This document shows positions 2,404 through 28,229 of a DNA stretch of 33,228 nt, in pieces (the stretch's first letter is position 1; the number at the start of each line of letters is the position of its first letter). The stretch is from Nitrospirota bacterium. GTDB taxonomy: Bacteria > Nitrospirota > Thermodesulfovibrionia > Thermodesulfovibrionales > JdFR-88. The notes beneath the pieces were generated by a model that saw only the letters and a list, made by a program, of their open reading frames with translations, was not told the DNA's origin and did not search any database. Made by a program: the position numbers and the translations under genes. The stretch lies in NCBI GenBank assembly GCA_021788025.1, contig JAJYLE010000006.1:1-33228 (forward strand). The letters run 5' to 3'.

Positions 2404-2447
2404 GGACAAGGGGCAAAATCCGCAGGATTTGTCCCTTGTCCTTTTAT
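2404..2447 (+). terminator. Rho-independent terminator after clpC
   Basis: The 18-base arm GGACAAGGGGCAAAATCC pairs with GGATTTGTCCCTTGTCC across a GCA loop, with one mismatch and one bulged base, and is followed by TTTTATT. It starts about 10 bases after the clpC stop codon. The ORF-track start for the next gene (2429) falls inside this stem, which argues for a later start for that gene. Confidence 0.75.
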
Positions 2448-2467
2448 TGTCCCCTGTTGCCCGGATA

Positions 2468-3001
2468 TTGAAAGCCAGCTTGAAGACCAAAGTCCTGAAA
2501 ACCGGATATCTTGCACTCCTGATAGTTCTTTGCGCGGCCCTTTTTTCCTGCCAGAAACAGCACCTGCCTCTGCAAACTGGAAAACCGGCCCCCGGCTTCA
2601 CTGTTATGGATGCGTCCGGGCAGAAGGTAACGCTTTCCAGTTTGAAAGGCAATGTGGTGCTTGTAAATTTCTGGGCCACATGGTGCGGAGTGTGCCAGGA
2701 TGAGACACCGTCGCTAAACGGCCTTTACAACAAGCTTAAGGCAAACCCTCACTTCCGCATGATCTCGATCCCTTTCAAGGACTCCACTGGGGCCGCCAGG
2801 CAATATCTGAAGGACAATTCTTCCAGCATCCCCGTGTATAAGGACCCCGGCGGAAAGGCCGCGCTTGATTACGGGCTTACCGGCGTGCCTGAAACCTACA
2901 TTGTGGACAAAAGCGGCATACTCAGGCAGAAGGTAATAGGCGGGATGAACTGGAGCGATCCGCGTGTCCTTTCCTACATGCAGGGACTTTTAAGCCAGTA
3001 G
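2468..3001 (+). CDS. TlpA/ResA-like thioredoxin-fold lipoprotein
   Basis: Membrane-anchored thiol-disulfide oxidoreductase of the TlpA/ResA family, which works outside the cytoplasmic membrane, often in cytochrome c maturation or disulfide reduction. The N-terminus has Lys residues, a hydrophobic stretch (YLALLIVLCAA) and the lipobox LFSC, so the mature protein should be lipidated at that Cys. The redox motif is WCGVC within FWATWCGVC, and GVPETYIVD carries the cis-proline loop. I placed the start at TTG 2468 because the track start (2429) lies inside the clpC terminator. TTG 2480 is equally possible, and neither has a strong ribosome binding site. It ends 4 bases before the DUF4416 gene, so the two are probably co-transcribed. 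Its specific partner is unknown, although a CXXCH protein is encoded elsewhere in the window. Confidence 0.85.
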   Translation: MKASLKTKVLKTGYLALLIVLCAALFSCQKQHLPLQTGKPAPGFTVMDASGQKVTLSSLKGNVVLVNFWATWCGVCQDETPSLNGLYNKLKANPHFRMISIPFKDSTGAARQYLKDNSSSIPVYKDPGGKAALDYGLTGVPETYIVDKSGILRQKVIGGMNWSDPRVLSYMQGLLSQ

Positions 3002-21712: not shown

Positions 21713-22144
21713 TTATTGAAATATTCTCAGCGCCCTGCCCGATGGAATGGCCCCCGCCGCACTGCCGGCCTTGTGGCATTTGTAGCACGGGGCGGGCGGA
21801 CTGGCCAGAAGCATCTGTGTATCCGAAAGTATCCATACACCGGCAATTACCATTATTGCCGAAAGTATTATCAAGGCGGATTTTACCGCTGAAAGCACAC
21901 GCTCCTTTTTTAAATACTCAAGCGCAATGCCCCACAATCCGTAAGCGGCATGATAGATAATCGCCAGAAGGAATACGGCATAAAATGCCATCCACCCGGG
22001 GTGGGACAATCTCATCATCACCACCCCATGCTCCGAGGCGTCCGGGCGTTCGAAGTGGTTTGCAAAAAAATGCACCGCCAGCCCGGCCACAAGCACAACT
22101 GCGCTTGCCCTGCTTAATAACCATCCAAAGGCCGTCTTCTTCAT
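21713..22144 (-). CDS. sdhD: Succinate dehydrogenase membrane anchor (SdhD-like) with C-terminal CXXCH motif
   Basis: Second membrane subunit of succinate dehydrogenase. Three transmembrane helices are visible (about residues 7-29, 50-74 and 86-106), with His25, His30 and the YHAAYGLWG block (His65) as possible haem b ligands. The positive charges (MKK, and LKKER between helices 2 and 3) place the C-terminus in the periplasm. There the protein continues with PAPCYKCHKAG: Cys120, Cys123 and His124 form a CXXCH haem c attachment motif (bases 21773-21787), which is not a normal feature of SdhD. I chose ATG 22144 over the track's GTG 22156 because it overlaps the sdhC stop as ATGA, matching the sdhB/sdhC junction. 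The protein is 143 residues long. Confidence 0.8.
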   Translation of the reverse strand: MKKTAFGWLLSRASAVVLVAGLAVHFFANHFERPDASEHGVVMMRLSHPGWMAFYAVFLLAIIYHAAYGLWGIALEYLKKERVLSAVKSALIILSAIMVIAGVWILSDTQMLLASPPAPCYKCHKAGSAAGAIPSGRALRIFQ

Positions 22145-22485
22145 CTTGCGCCCCACATCATATGGGGAATGGAAATCAGCAATATCAGGGCACCCGCTGA
22201 AAGGGCTGTCCAGAAGAAGACTTTTTGCAGCCTTGTGGGAGCGCCGGCCTCAAGAAGAATCAGCCTTATGCCGTTTAATCCGTGGGCAAGCACTATGCCA
22301 AGAAGCGCCAGCTCGGAAAACCGCATAACAGGCGTATTGTAAAAGTCCCTTATCGCCTCGTAGCGGGCCGCGTCCCCGATGAAATAAAGGCTGAAAAAAT
22401 GCGGTATGAGGAAAACGGCCAGGATTACACCGGAGAGCCTGTTTAAGATAAATGCGAAAAACCCGGTGGTAAGCCTGTATCTCAT
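22141..22485 (-). CDS. sdhC: Succinate dehydrogenase cytochrome b subunit (SdhC-like)
   Basis: Membrane anchor subunit of 114 residues. Three hydrophobic helices are apparent (around 9-34, 54-78 and 89-110). His29 and His68, the latter in the conserved AHGLNGIRL block, are candidate haem b ligands. The track ORF starts further upstream at 22596, but that extension runs through sdhB coding sequence. ATG 22485 overlaps the sdhB TGA as ATGA and has a GGGGGG-rich stretch upstream, so it is the better start. Both anchors together imply a haem b-containing quinone-reducing complex. Confidence 0.88.
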   Translation of the reverse strand: MRYRLTTGFFAFILNRLSGVILAVFLIPHFFSLYFIGDAARYEAIRDFYNTPVMRFSELALLGIVLAHGLNGIRLILLEAGAPTRLQKVFFWTALSAGALILLISIPHMMWGAR

Positions 22486-23198: not shown

Positions 23199-24920
23199 CT
23201 AGTATTGCCGCTTTTCAGGCTTGAATTTTGTGATGCAAACGGGTTTGAAACTGAAACGTATTTCCCCGTCCTTTTTTCTTATGAAAGTATGCTTCAGCCA
23301 GTTTTCATCGTCCCGCTCCGGATAATCCTGCCTGCAATGGGCGCCTCTGGACTCGGTCCTCTGAAGCGCGGAATGGACGATTGCCTCACCAAGGTTCACA
23401 AGGTGAATGGCCTCGATAGCCTCAAGCAATTCCGTGTTGAATTGTTTACCTTTATCATCAATCGAGATATTGCCCGCCTTCTGCCTGATGGTCTCTATCT
23501 CTTCAGCGGCCGCCTTCAGGCCCGCATCGGCCCGGAACACGGAGCATTTGTCCATCATCAATTCCTGGAGCTCCTTCTTTACGGCCCCCGCGCGTACGCC
23601 GCCTTTATTGTTCAGAAGCGCGGAAACCGCTTCCCTTGCCCGTTCCATTGCGCCTGGCGGCATGCCCGGGCCGCTTTTGTCCTTTTGCTCCGCCGCTTTC
23701 ATGCCTGCACGCCTGCCAAAAACCACCGTATCCAGAAGCGAATTGCAGCCAAGCCTGTTTGCCCCGTGCACGGATACGCAAGCGCATTCCCCCGCAGCAA
23801 ACAGGCCATCAACCACCGCGCCGCTTTCGGTTATCAGCACCCTGCCGTCCCTGTCAGTAGGTATGCCGCCCATGGCGTAATGTGCGGTGGGCGCAACCGG
23901 AATGGGTTTTTCGGATGGGTCCACACCCATATAAATATTCGAGAACGTCATTATCTCCGGCAGCCTGGTCTCAAGAGTTTTTTTAGGGACGTTTCTTAAA
24001 TCCAGGTATACGTAATCGTTGCCGCCGATGCCCCTGCCTTCCTTTATCTCGGTAATTATCGCCCTGGACACCATGTCCCTTGGCGCAAGGTCCTTTATCC
24101 TCGGGGCGTACCTCTGCATGAAAGTCTCCCCGTTGCCGTTTACAAGCACGCCGCCTTCTCCCCTGGCCCCCTCGGTTACAAGTATCCCAAGCCCCAGAAG
24201 CCCGGTTGGGTGGAACTGAAAGAACTCCATATCCTCAAGCGGCATCCCCTTTGAATAAAGAATCCCAAGCAGGTCGCCGGTGCTTGCCATCGCGTTGGAT
24301 GTGGTTTTAAAAACTCTCCCATAGCCTCCCGTGGCTATAATGGTGGCGCCTGCCTCAAACGCACAAATCTCGCCGGTCTTTAATTCCAGGGCAACGGCCC
24401 CCAAACACCTGCCGTCTTCTATCACCAGATCCAGCACGTGATATTCTGGGAAGAACATCACCGGCTGTTTTTCGCATTGCTCGTAAAGCGTGTTTACCAT
24501 CGCAAGCCCCGTCCTGTCAGCCGAATAGCAGGCGCGCCTTACCGGGGCCGCGCCAAAATCCCTTGTGTGCCCGCCAAAACGTCTTTGGGCAATCTTGCCT
24601 TGCGGTGTGCGTGAAAAGGGCACGCCAAGATGCTCCAGCCGGATAACGGTTTTTATGGCGTCTTCGCATAATGTTCCGGCTGCGTCCTGGTCCGTAAGAT
24701 AATCGCCGCCTTTAACGGTGTCGTAGACGTGCCATTCAATGGAATCCGGCTCCTCATTGCCAAGCGCGGCGGCTATGCCGCCCTGAGCAGCCGAGGAATG
24801 GCACCTTGTGGGATAAAGCTTTGCTATTACGGCAACTGTCCCCTGCAACGAGGCCTCGATGGCCGCGCTGAGGCCGGCAAGTCCGGAGCCGATTACAAGC
24901 GTATCGAAGCGGTGGACCAT
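23199..24920 (-). CDS. sdhA: Succinate dehydrogenase flavoprotein subunit
   Basis: FAD-containing subunit that oxidises succinate to fumarate, or the reverse. The N-terminal FAD fold is VIGSGLAGLSAAIEA. RCHSSAAQGGI contains His41, the expected covalent FAD attachment residue. FQFHPTG, GARGEGGVLVN and PTAHYAMGGI carry substrate-binding and active-site elements, and HGANRLGCNSLLD follows. The 573-residue length fits SdhA or FrdA. Sequence alone does not fix the direction, but the adjacent fumC supports a TCA role. ATG 24920 was preferred to the track start. No strong ribosome binding site is visible. It is the first gene of sdhABCD. Confidence 0.96.
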   Translation of the reverse strand: MVHRFDTLVIGSGLAGLSAAIEASLQGTVAVIAKLYPTRCHSSAAQGGIAAALGNEEPDSIEWHVYDTVKGGDYLTDQDAAGTLCEDAIKTVIRLEHLGVPFSRTPQGKIAQRRFGGHTRDFGAAPVRRACYSADRTGLAMVNTLYEQCEKQPVMFFPEYHVLDLVIEDGRCLGAVALELKTGEICAFEAGATIIATGGYGRVFKTTSNAMASTGDLLGILYSKGMPLEDMEFFQFHPTGLLGLGILVTEGARGEGGVLVNGNGETFMQRYAPRIKDLAPRDMVSRAIITEIKEGRGIGGNDYVYLDLRNVPKKTLETRLPEIMTFSNIYMGVDPSEKPIPVAPTAHYAMGGIPTDRDGRVLITESGAVVDGLFAAGECACVSVHGANRLGCNSLLDTVVFGRRAGMKAAEQKDKSGPGMPPGAMERAREAVSALLNNKGGVRAGAVKKELQELMMDKCSVFRADAGLKAAAEEIETIRQKAGNISIDDKGKQFNTELLEAIEAIHLVNLGEAIVHSALQRTESRGAHCRQDYPERDDENWLKHTFIRKKDGEIRFSFKPVCITKFKPEKRQY

Positions 24921-24959
24921 CAACACAATATATCACAACCAAAAAATTAATTTAAAAGG

Positions 24960-25147: not shown

Positions 25148-26488
25148 TTAAAAGATGCTGCCCGCCACGCTGACAACTATCTCGCCGCCGCCGTAGCGGC
25201 CTTTTCGCACCACTGAAAAATTATAGTTATAGGCCAGTTGCAGGCGCGTGTGGAATAAAAACCCGGTGGTCAGCCTGGCGCCCAGAGAGGAGAAAAAATC
25301 GTTCTTGTCCACAGGCCCTCCGGCTTCCATCCGAAGGCGGTCCAGCCAGGCGGCCGAGGCGTCCAGCCCCAGGTACATGAAGAAGACCGGCTCCCACCGG
25401 TACTCGCCGGTGGCGATAATGTAGCGCTTCGGGAAAAACTCCTCCAGCGCTGCCCCAGGCAATACCGGCCTCCATGTGGAGCCGTACTCCTCTCCCATCG
25501 GGTTTAAGCCGCCGCCTATCCGCTGCACGGAAAAGCGGTCCAGCCCGATGCCGCCACCGCCATGCAGCGCACCTATAAGCCTGTGCCGGTCTGAATGCAA
25601 TCCAGGCACTCCGCCAGCGGCAACCAGATACCCTGTGAATAGATAATAATCACGCCCGCCGGCTTCAGCGCCGTTTATCCCCCAGCCGCTCCATTTAAGC
25701 CGGTGGCCGCAGATAATGTCCGCCCCGGCGGCAATCCCCCTGTGTGGAAGCTCCAGGATATTGCGCACCAGCTCATCCAGCCGGAACTGAAGATGGCCGC
25801 GCACCTCGAATGTATCGCCGGGGGCAACAAAATCCTGTGCGGTACGGGAGCCGCGGCCAAAAAACACATAGCCGGGCTCCGCGGTAAGGTCCAGTGCAAG
25901 CATGTTGTCCTGCTTGCCGGGGTAAACCTGCCTTCTGTACCCTATGCCAACCCCTGCCCTCGCGTAGCCCCACAAAAGTTCCTGCGATTTCAGGGCCGTG
26001 CCGTCCACAAGCTGCGCCTGGGGAAACGGGACCGTATAGTTTTCAAAGGTGGCCACCCATTCCAGCGGCCTGACAGAGGCCGGGGAGCGGGCCAGAAAAA
26101 GGTTATTGTCAAAACCCGCCAGCCTTGCCCGAAACAGCCTGAAGTCATCCGGATGCCGCCAGAGATAAATGCTGCCTATTGGCAGCACGGCGGAGCCTTC
26201 GGCCACGGGTTTGGCAAGCGCCGCCCCAATGTCCCAGGCGGTTTCGGAGCGCCGGTTGCGTGGGCGGACCGTAACTTTATGGCCCAGCACCATACCCTGA
26301 TAGCACTGCCCCGCAAGCGGCGTGTGATACGCGGCATCCTGGCAGCCCGCCGTTTTTGATATCACATTTGATATTCCGTCTGCTGATAGCGCCTGCCCCG
26401 GCACGCGTGAATTGCTTCCGGCATGCACTGGAAGCGCCCGGCAGAAAAAGGCAAGGGCAAGCGGCAGGAAGATGATGGCTTTTTTCAT
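25148..26488 (-). CDS. Predicted outer-membrane beta-barrel protein of unknown function
   Basis: A 446-residue exported protein. The N-terminus is a clear Sec signal peptide (MKKAIIFLPLALAFFCRALPVHA) with cleavage after VHA. The C-terminus ends in alternating hydrophobic residues and a terminal Phe (VVSVAGSIF), typical of proteins inserted by the BAM machinery. Many short alternating Tyr/Phe/Trp strands in the second half (IIATGEYRWEPVFFMYLGLDAS, LQLAYNYNFSVV) look like barrel strands. The pattern recalls surface-antigen / Omp85-type barrels, but I do not see enough to assign a family. It is the last gene of a co-directional run with a small secreted protein (33-base gap) and a pepsin-like lipoprotein, suggesting a shared envelope role. 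No strong ribosome binding site is visible. Confidence 0.7.
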   Translation of the reverse strand: MKKAIIFLPLALAFFCRALPVHAGSNSRVPGQALSADGISNVISKTAGCQDAAYHTPLAGQCYQGMVLGHKVTVRPRNRRSETAWDIGAALAKPVAEGSAVLPIGSIYLWRHPDDFRLFRARLAGFDNNLFLARSPASVRPLEWVATFENYTVPFPQAQLVDGTALKSQELLWGYARAGVGIGYRRQVYPGKQDNMLALDLTAEPGYVFFGRGSRTAQDFVAPGDTFEVRGHLQFRLDELVRNILELPHRGIAAGADIICGHRLKWSGWGINGAEAGGRDYYLFTGYLVAAGGVPGLHSDRHRLIGALHGGGGIGLDRFSVQRIGGGLNPMGEEYGSTWRPVLPGAALEEFFPKRYIIATGEYRWEPVFFMYLGLDASAAWLDRLRMEAGGPVDKNDFFSSLGARLTTGFLFHTRLQLAYNYNFSVVRKGRYGGGEIVVSVAGSIF

Positions 26489-26521: not shown

Positions 26522-26995
26522 TCATGGCTCAAGCGCCTTAGAATAGGCCTCAACATTGAAATTTCCCGGCAGTCCGAAGGACCTGTAAATAACCGCATTG
26601 GCGCCGGCGCCGTATTGCAGCGCAATGGCCCGCCTGGGTATTCTTGAAAGCACCTTTGGCCTGGTACCGGCCAGCCGCCCTACAAATATCGAAGCAGGGG
26701 GAAGCGTTCTGCTATGCAGTGCAACCATTCTGAAACATACGCCGCTGGAATTGAATGCGGCATACACGGTAAACCCTCCGATTTTAAAACTGTAATTTTT
26801 GGCCCCTGCGTTCCACAGCCTTTCCGCCTGCGCCGGGGCAAAGGCGCGCTTAAGCGGCACACGCGCCGGAGCGCCATATTTCTGCGCCATTACGTTATAT
26901 GTATCGCCCACTGCGGCCCATGCGCCGCACACCCCGCCGTACACACATATTTGCGCCAGCAATATTGAAAATAAAATTAACAGGGCCTTCTTCAT
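26522..26995 (-). CDS. Small secreted protein of unknown function
   Basis: A 157-residue protein with a signal peptide (MKKALLILFSILLAQICVYGGVCGAWAA) cut after AWAA. The mature part opens VGDTYNVMAQKYGAPARVP, a pattern reminiscent of small envelope proteins with a 'GDTY...v..ryG.P' repeat, but I recognise no specific family. The track ORF begins at 27133. ATG 26995 is preferred because AAAGGAGG stands just upstream at the right distance and the signal peptide starts there. It begins 19 bases after the stop of the pepsin-like lipoprotein gene and ends 33 bases before the outer-membrane barrel gene, so the three are likely one operon. Confidence 0.75.
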   Translation of the reverse strand: MKKALLILFSILLAQICVYGGVCGAWAAVGDTYNVMAQKYGAPARVPLKRAFAPAQAERLWNAGAKNYSFKIGGFTVYAAFNSSGVCFRMVALHSRTLPPASIFVGRLAGTRPKVLSRIPRRAIALQYGAGANAVIYRSFGLPGNFNVEAYSKALEP

Positions 26996-27014
26996 CACGC
27001 CTCCTTTTTTCAGC

Positions 27015-28229
27015 TCAAGGGAATTTGATTCCGATGCCGTAAGGCGATACCTGCCAGTACATAGGCTGGGTGAGCAGGTAAGGAAGCCCCATAAGCTCCA
27101 GCCCTCCATCGTCCGGCTGGGGATTGACTGCATTGCTAATCAGGATATACCCTCCGGACGGCACGCCCGTAAAGGCAGATGCCGGAAATTCAAAGTTCGC
27201 GCTGGAATCATTGGGGCTGGTAACAAAACTGGCCCTGCTGTCAAAGACGCTTCCGGTATAAAACCCAACGGAAAGATTAAGACCGCCTTTTACCAGGGTT
27301 ATGCTTCCTATTACAGGCGTGCTTGACGGCAACTGGTATTCGTGGCTGGCAAGGGCGTTCTCTCCTATTCCGGCAGCATTTGCGATAGCGCTGTTTTCCA
27401 TGAAGATGAAATTACTGCCCGTATCCAGAATGCTTTTGTACTTGTTTCCGGAGGGGTTTTTGGAAAGCCCTCCGGATTCCGAATCTATTACCGGATAGCT
27501 CTGCGTCTGGGACGGATCATTGGGGAAAAATGAAAACCCTGATGTGCTGTTGTCCGGCTGGGAATTCAGCCCGAATATAAGCTGTCCGGAGCCGCTGTAG
27601 CTGTAGCCATCGCCATTGAGGCCGGGGCTTAGCTGCATGAGAAACCCGTTATTGAAATTGCCGTTTTCAATCCCCTGCACCAGCGACGGGGTAGGCACGG
27701 CCCCCCCGCCAAAGAGGCCAAATGAAACGGAACTGGAAAGCCCCATCCCGAAGTCACCCTGCAAAGCGCTGCTTGAGGGAAACGCGTTGCCGCCGGTGTC
27801 CACCGCTATCTGAAAATTGCTTGTGGTTGAAAGCCCCCCCGAAGCCAGCGTAGAGACCTGGGCTCCGTTTACAAAACCCGAAAAAGTTGTGCCGTCGGCG
27901 AATGAGCCGCTGAAGGTATTGCTGTTTGGGGCCATATTGATTCCGGCGGCCTGCAGGGCGGACTGGTTTACAAGTATGCCGGTTACCCCGGTGTCCAGAA
28001 GAAGGTTAAAAGGCTTCCCGTCTATGTACACCGTAACGTAAGGAATGTCCGGCCCGTCCGCGCCGGAAAAGCATACGGGCATCGTGTTGGATGGACCAGC
28101 CGGCGAGTTGCAAATGGCCAGAGAAACGGGAGCTGGTGGCGTTCCTCCTCCGCCACCGCCGCCACCGCAGCCTGGCAACCAAAGAAACAATAGAAAGATG
28201 GCCGGGATAAGACGTATTAATCTTCTCAT
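27015..28229 (-). CDS. Pepsin-like aspartyl-protease-fold lipoprotein (DUF3443-like)
   Basis: A 404-residue lipoprotein. The lipobox is LPGC (Cys21), followed by a run of eight Gly acting as a tether. Two DTG motifs, FNLLLDTGVTG (Asp79) and SILDTGSNFIF (Asp269), are spaced as in two-lobed pepsin-type aspartic proteases. The layout and the C-terminal LELMGLPYLL segment resemble DUF3443. With both Asp present it could be catalytic, but DUF3443 proteins have no well-established activity that I know of. A third DTG (VDTGGN, near 144) lacks the strand context. The start ATG 28229 has AGGAGGAGG directly upstream. It is the first gene of the exported-protein trio. Confidence 0.75.
   Translation of the reverse strand: MRRLIRLIPAIFLLFLWLPGCGGGGGGGGTPPAPVSLAICNSPAGPSNTMPVCFSGADGPDIPYVTVYIDGKPFNLLLDTGVTGILVNQSALQAAGINMAPNSNTFSGSFADGTTFSGFVNGAQVSTLASGGLSTTSNFQIAVDTGGNAFPSSSALQGDFGMGLSSSVSFGLFGGGAVPTPSLVQGIENGNFNNGFLMQLSPGLNGDGYSYSGSGQLIFGLNSQPDNSTSGFSFFPNDPSQTQSYPVIDSESGGLSKNPSGNKYKSILDTGSNFIFMENSAIANAAGIGENALASHEYQLPSSTPVIGSITLVKGGLNLSVGFYTGSVFDSRASFVTSPNDSSANFEFPASAFTGVPSGGYILISNAVNPQPDDGGLELMGLPYLLTQPMYWQVSPYGIGIKFP

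Follow-up and report, generated by a model that had tools for sequence, protein, structure and literature searches.

A clade-wide complex II variant in a family of Nitrospirota: an SdhD anchor that probably bears haem c

Members of complex II are classed by the number of membrane anchors and haem b groups that they contain, and those with two haems are reported to sustain electron transfer across the membrane (passages of PMC7447783). The nearest solved relative of both anchors considered here is Sdh2 of M. smegmatis (PDB 6LUM), a dihaem succinate:menaquinone oxidoreductase in which the proximal haem b (bP) is ligated by His D107 and His C87 and the distal haem b (bD) by His D65 and His C47 (passages of PMC7447783). 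Sdh2 also includes an SdhF helix, and the comparison made here is that of the SdhC and SdhD anchors. SdhD also shows weak similarity to part of the dihaem cytochrome b of the Wolinella succinogenes quinol:fumarate reductase (2BS2-2BS4, type B; E 0.02-0.3), but this protein is a single fused anchor polypeptide and the match stops at profile position 77, before the tail described below. No description of a succinate dehydrogenase (SDH) with a haem-c tail on its anchor was found in the literature searched, which included passages of PMC7447783 and PMC10238741. Here we describe a clade-wide variant of complex II, previously unreported in that literature, with a probable haem c on the anchor.

The window, that is, the whole stretch of DNA analysed (33,228 nucleotides; contig JAJYLE010000006.1 of assembly GCA_021788025.1), belongs to a Nitrospirota genome of 2.5 Mb in 221 contigs with an estimated completeness of 97.75%. 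It contains the genes sdhABCD followed by fumC, all on the minus strand, and fumC occurs in the same order at 4/5 of the loci that carry the tail. The genes are as follows.

23199..24926, minus strand: sdhA, flavoprotein subunit, 575 aa
22482..23195, minus strand: sdhB, iron-sulfur subunit, 237 aa
22141..22485, minus strand: sdhC, first membrane anchor, 114 aa
21713..22144, minus strand: sdhD, second membrane anchor with a C-terminal haem-c-like tail, 143 aa
20111..21514, minus strand: fumC, class II fumarase, next gene 3' of sdhD after a gap of 198 bases

The assignment to complex II rests on both catalytic subunits, which score above curated cut-offs: SdhA with the NCBIfam model TIGR01816 sdhA_forward (E 1.2e-234, 779.8 bits, cut-off 727.35) and SdhB with PRK05950 (299.4 bits, cut-off 228) as well as TIGR00384. 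The anchors are separate open reading frames (ORFs), and both exceed the cut-off of Pfam Sdh_cyt, SdhC with E 1.5e-11 and SdhD barely (26.3 bits, cut-off 25.8). In the NCBIfam anchor models they fall slightly short, with 46.5 bits for SdhC in TIGR02970 (cut-off 52.3) and 40.0 bits for SdhD in TIGR02968 succ_dehyd_anc (cut-off 41.8); SdhC aligned with chain C of 6lum at E 2.5e-12 and SdhD with chain D at E 7.4e-05. The hydrophobic maxima of SdhD, corresponding to three helices, lie at residues 9-27, 57-75, and 89-107, and the helices of SdhC were judged from the alignment. The best match of FumC was TIGR00979, at 528 bits under the cut-off of 664.75. The overlaps of a few bases between sdhB and sdhC and between sdhC and sdhD are the usual mark of an operon. 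Upstream of sdhA, two minus-strand ORFs (25148-26488 and 26522-27133) had no Pfam match and stand beside a gene for an aspartyl-protease-like/DUF3443 protein (27015-28229).

Alignment with Sdh2 identified four candidate haem b ligands in the two anchors.

22070..22072, minus strand: SdhD His25, proposed bD ligand, aligned to His D65 of Sdh2
21950..21952, minus strand: SdhD His65, proposed bP ligand, aligned to His D107 of Sdh2
22399..22401, minus strand: SdhC His29, proposed bD ligand, aligned to His C47 of Sdh2
22282..22284, minus strand: SdhC His68, proposed bP ligand, aligned to His C87 of Sdh2

Each of these positions is histidine in 38/38 sequences, a set composed of the five SdhC-SdhD pairs of the family and 33 from elsewhere, from which 12 duplicate loci had been dropped before counting and tree building (L017, L026, L027, L028, L031, L034, L038, L044, L045, L047, L062, and L063). 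Because the four invariant histidines align with the haem b ligands of Sdh2, the complex II of this family is predicted to be a dihaem, two-anchor, type-A-like enzyme. Where the two systems part is the C-terminus, as chain D of 6lum matches profile positions 6-108 only, which excludes the tail. Residues near the quinone sites are also conserved in SdhD (E76 in 38/38 sequences, Y77 in 37/38). The quinone-site tryptophan of SdhB is kept in three of the five tail-bearers (the window, L002, and L003) and replaced by arginine in the two g2 genomes, and every tail-less SdhB spanning the position has tryptophan. We considered the loss of this tryptophan as a sign of quinone independence, but its retention in 3/5 tail-bearers makes it indecisive.

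The sequence-only reading of the window had drawn attention to a CXXCH motif in a tail past the third helix of SdhD, and this tail is real. SdhD ends in ...ILSDTQMLLASPPAPCYKCHKAGSAAGAIPSGRALRIFQ, an extension of 35 residues beyond helix 3, with the following features.

21716..21826, minus strand: SdhD tail, residues 107-143, similar to one half of the doubled-CXXCH haem module and continuing with GS..IPSGRALRIF (alignment of five homologues, PF09699 match, tail profile, and module comparison)
21773..21787, minus strand: CYKCH, residues 120-124 of the 143-aa SdhD, proposed haem c attachment site; C120, C123, and H124 invariant in 5/5

CYKCH is the sole CXXCH among the 24 window proteins counted (9206 residues), in which 0.024 occurrences would be expected by chance, or about 0.0004 in SdhD. 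The expectation that close relatives would share the motif and the tail was borne out: SdhD was found in 5 of the 12 genomes of the family, SdhB in exactly the same five, and all five SdhDs carry both, so that every detected SDH of the family is tailed. The five represent three genera and show 49-90% protein identity to the SdhD of the window (49-55% for the more distant ones). Their common pattern is PPxxCYxCHxxGS…IPSxRA, with Q110, L112, L113, P116, P117, C120, Y121, C123, H124, G127, S128, I133, P134, S135, R137, A138, and F142 unchanged in 5/5; the conserved IPSxRA end gave no match. A chance motif is ruled out by this conservation together with the expectation of 0.0004 per SdhD, and an artefact of a single metagenome assembly by the presence of the tail in five separate genomes from three genera. 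Two of these loci showed disrupted frames. In genome G002 (L092, 8051-7458, minus strand; the gene of L005), the sdhD frame continues beyond the tail into remnants of fumC and an aldehyde dehydrogenase gene, the fused remnant being 57.8% identical over 45 aa (E 2.7e-12) to the aldehyde dehydrogenase encoded downstream in the window; apparently, a deletion fused sdhD to two gene remnants and left the CXXCH tail intact. In genome G008 (L003, G008:C40:14564-15301), sdhB has an in-frame TAG between two well-matching halves, reflecting either a sequencing error or decay.

An SdhD-like match was present in 45/176 genomes of the order and in 54/395 genomes of a phylum sample that overlaps with the order set, and in both searches the five family SdhDs were the only ones to span the tail without a stop. 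The SdhCD of other families of the order share the two anchors and the b-haem ligands with those of the window, but their SdhD stops at about residue 107: all 33 SdhDs from other families that were examined over their whole length (one per genome, 30 of them in the order and another 3 in the class) finish at the end of helix 3 without a CXXCH. Among the 40 order genomes outside the family with an SdhD match, these 30 were examined in this way and the other 10 were judged from alignment limits alone. A read-through artefact was considered for several order members (G084, G151, G097, and G132), in which the tail region is matched only in part and across stop codons; the DNA 3' of the sdhD stop in L029, L039, and L040 had no CXXCH of the tail kind. 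In many relatives (L007, L016, L036, and other order members), the sdhC-sdhD pair had no SdhA or SdhB match within 1.5 kb flanks, and such anchors may therefore work with different catalytic subunits or be encoded away from their own. In a tree of SdhC and SdhD calculated with the tail columns left out, the five tail-bearers formed one clade with a support of 1.00 and a long stem. The tail thus looks like a single gain in the family, and other traits common to the five consequently count as one event and not five.

When the isolated tails were compared with Pfam, the doubled-CXXCH family PF09699 was the sole family matched, by four of the five tails (best E 1e-4), the exception being that of L003. 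With whole SdhDs, four of the five matched at E <= 1, the best E-value was 0.0011 and the best scores were 19.0 and 18.5 bits, under the cut-off of 20.6, so that no tailed SdhD reached the gathering threshold. The corresponding NCBIfam model TIGR01905 matched 2/5 tails (best E 0.0022). In a search of the 176 genomes with a profile of the tail, the five SdhDs came first, with E-values of 1e-23 to 1e-25, followed by many weaker matches from 8e-7. Of the latter, those examined at the DNA level (L082-L089) comprised the top matches from other families as well as the ones in the genome of the window and in its congener, and each lay within a cytochrome of 11-21 CXXCH. In such doubled-CXXCH multihaem cytochromes (PF09699/TIGR01905), it is the second half of the module, of the SDNEKMLLSSPPDLCYNCH type, that matches the SdhD tail SDTQMLLASPPAPCYKCH; the likeness around the second haem is seen when the tails LSDTQMLLASPPAPCYKCH and LANSQMLLANPPALCYKCH are set beside the cytochrome second halves SDNEKMLLSSPPDLCYNCH and SKNAKLLKAEPPELCYNCH. 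Compared with a matrix of 49 second halves, all five tails fitted this class better than that of the other haem sites, with scores of 2.9 to 19.6 that lie under the median of real second halves (26.4) and inside their range. When the tails were shuffled 50000 times with the CXXCH cysteines and histidine held fixed, scores as high arose 115, 152, 469, 8, and 2 times for the respective proteins. In contrast to the cytochromes, SdhD combines a single half module and a single haem site with a three-helix anchor, and it lacks the first CXXCH and the PH histidine. PF09699 is defined by two CXXCH about 23 residues apart; because SdhD has the second half only and scores below the threshold, its tail is best said to resemble the second half of such a module, as found in multihaem cytochromes, not to belong to the family.

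A haem c would be attached on the periplasmic side, where the sequence-only reading had placed the tail from its charge pattern. The location stands, on other grounds. The tail has four K/R and one D/E, and its K/R count equals that of the cytoplasmic loop, so that the positive-inside rule alone does not place it. The helices and the four haem b ligands align with Sdh2, and this homology to complex II anchors puts the SdhD C-terminus in the predicted periplasmic position, given the orientation of the E. coli and mycobacterial complex II anchors. The predicted bD likewise lies towards the periplasm, the side at which helix 3 of SdhD gives way to the tail. An AlphaFold2 model built from a two-row alignment was poor (mean pLDDT 58, tail below 50), and only the helix limits were taken from it.

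Regarding maturation, the genome encodes what the proposal calls for: genes for ResB (PF05140) and CcsB (TIGR03144, above cut-off) lie side by side on contig C159 and represent a system II haem-c synthase, C159 also encodes a second CcsB, and C36 carries another ResB/Cytochrom_C_asm pair. A ResA/TlpA-like thioredoxin, cited earlier as an additional hint, is indeed encoded in the window (2429-3001, plus strand, WCGVC motif; best NCBIfam match ResA, E 2.3e-26, with 92.8 bits under the cut-off of 170), but it is encoded on the opposite strand at a distance of about 19 kb and is unlinked to sdh. As to possible redox partners, contig C18 carries two adjacent genes for doubled-CXXCH cytochromes with 19 and 13 CXXCH (L087 2120-4732, G000:C18), a cluster that is possibly an outer-surface electron conduit. 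Before them lies a gene for a propeller-like repeat protein and after them an ORF resembling an outer-membrane barrel, both named by inspection. Contig C169 encodes an aa3-type oxidase composed of COX1, a subunit III, and a subunit-II-like frame, the latter two named by inspection. The C18 cytochromes and the C169 oxidase are possible partners of the haem c. Across the 12 family genomes, COX1 was considered as a correlate of the tailed SDH and showed no correlation. Sulfite-reductase domains of the DsrAB kind and a cytochrome b whose N-terminal domain is of the bc1 type are each present in 12/12 and are uninformative in this respect; the latter means that a quinol-to-cytochrome-c route may exist anyway.

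Two residues on the periplasmic side were identified as candidates for the sixth ligand of the haem c.

22028..22030, minus strand: SdhD His39, periplasmic loop, candidate sixth ligand; H in 5/5 tail-bearers and in 8/33 tail-less SdhDs
22159..22161, minus strand: SdhC Met109, periplasmic C-terminus, rival candidate; M in 5/5 tail-bearers and L/I/F in 33/33 tail-less sequences

Either of them could be the ligand, neither being certain, and the common descent of the five tail-bearers weakens the assignment. Bis-His ligation would resemble that of multihaem modules.

From the tail, its conservation, its likeness to a haem module, the b-haem ligands, and the maturation genes, all of which are read from the sequences, we infer the attachment of the haem, its partner, and the direction of flow. 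Very probably, the SdhD anchor of this family carries a covalently attached haem c. A half-module-like stretch of a multihaem cytochrome would have been added to the anchor of a dihaem type-A-like SDH, the SdhD C-terminus would be exported, and the ResB/CcsB (system II) synthase would attach the haem at Cys120 and Cys123. With two predicted haem b groups, the haem c would be the last member of a redox chain that crosses the membrane from FAD through three Fe-S clusters, bP, and bD to the periplasmic surface, giving it the role of electron exit or entry that the sequence-only reading had suggested. Counting both directions, direct electron exchange with periplasmic cytochromes is reasonably to fairly likely. 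Within this, we somewhat favour a complex II with three haems (b-b-c), the haem c of which passes succinate electrons to periplasmic cytochromes, alongside or instead of menaquinone; the most likely route would lead through periplasmic c-type cytochromes to the aa3-type oxidase or to outer-surface multihaem cytochromes. Menaquinone is a poor acceptor for succinate electrons. As electrons would move outward while the protons of succinate stay inside, succinate oxidation would use the membrane potential, which would aid the reaction when the acceptors at hand are low-potential only. Menaquinone may still be reduced, perhaps as the main reaction, considering that SdhD E76/Y77 are kept and that the SdhB tryptophan is present in 3/5.

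Sequence alone cannot set the direction of electron flow, and the chain geometry is equal both ways. The haem c could therefore be attached and yet receive electrons, which would pass from periplasmic or extracellular cytochromes through bD and bP to cytoplasmic fumarate, either as a fumarate respiration that generates proton motive force or as part of a reductive TCA cycle; run in this way, fumarate reduction by cytochrome electrons would build membrane potential. The transmembrane electron transfer described for dihaem complex II (passages of PMC7447783) is compatible with such a reversal, and the DsrAB-kind domains of all 12 genomes, together with the two multihaem cytochromes, fit a largely anaerobic life. 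SdhA, however, scores above the cut-off of a model of the succinate dehydrogenase type (sdhA_forward), and the adjoining fumC and the oxidase fit oxidative use; reversed flow is unlikely. We regard as distinctly unlikely that an attached haem c has a structural or auxiliary role, such as keeping the tail in place, docking a partner, or tuning bD, with electrons leaving only through menaquinone as in Sdh2. Such a role would agree with the identity of E76/Y77 and of all b-haem ligands with those of tail-less relatives, with an IPSxRA... end as conserved as the CXXCH itself, which suggests a binding surface, and with the finding that no other cytochrome gene lies close to sdh, either in the window or in four other neighbourhoods analysed. 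Against it, a haem placed a few residues past helix 3 should be close enough to bD for electron tunnelling, and the module that the tail resembles is one for electron transfer.

The motif might also bear no haem at all and instead bind zinc or another metal, form a disulfide with a redox or structural function, or be a remnant in decay. A single CXXCH is a short motif, two of the five tails match the NCBIfam DnaJ model weakly (E 0.045), and in one close pair of congeners the tail appears less constrained than the SdhD body (dN/dS 0.52 versus 0.16, the tail value resting on just 3 synonymous and 5 non-synonymous changes). These observations are opposed by the invariance of CXXCH, including its histidine, in 5/5 sequences from three genera, by a likeness to haem modules that reaches upstream of the motif, and by the encoded ResB/CcsB synthase, which is of the kind acting on exported CXXCH; a zinc site would, moreover, require more ligands. 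A tail without haem is accordingly very unlikely. Returning to the haem-bearing anchor, we put forward tentatively that this complex II works as a succinate:cytochrome c oxidoreductase or a cytochrome c:fumarate reductase with a continuous b-b-c wire, a bypass of menaquinone being possible.

Few respiratory enzymes have been studied as thoroughly as complex II, and a covalently bound haem c on its periplasmic side would be a new cofactor for it. If true, the family would possess a wired complex II in which electron transfer is directly coupled to the membrane potential. Joining half a haem module to the end of one helix would represent a simple evolutionary route from a quinone-linked to a cytochrome-linked dehydrogenase, and the tailed SDH offers a clean test of how organisms that use menaquinone cope with unfavourable succinate oxidation.
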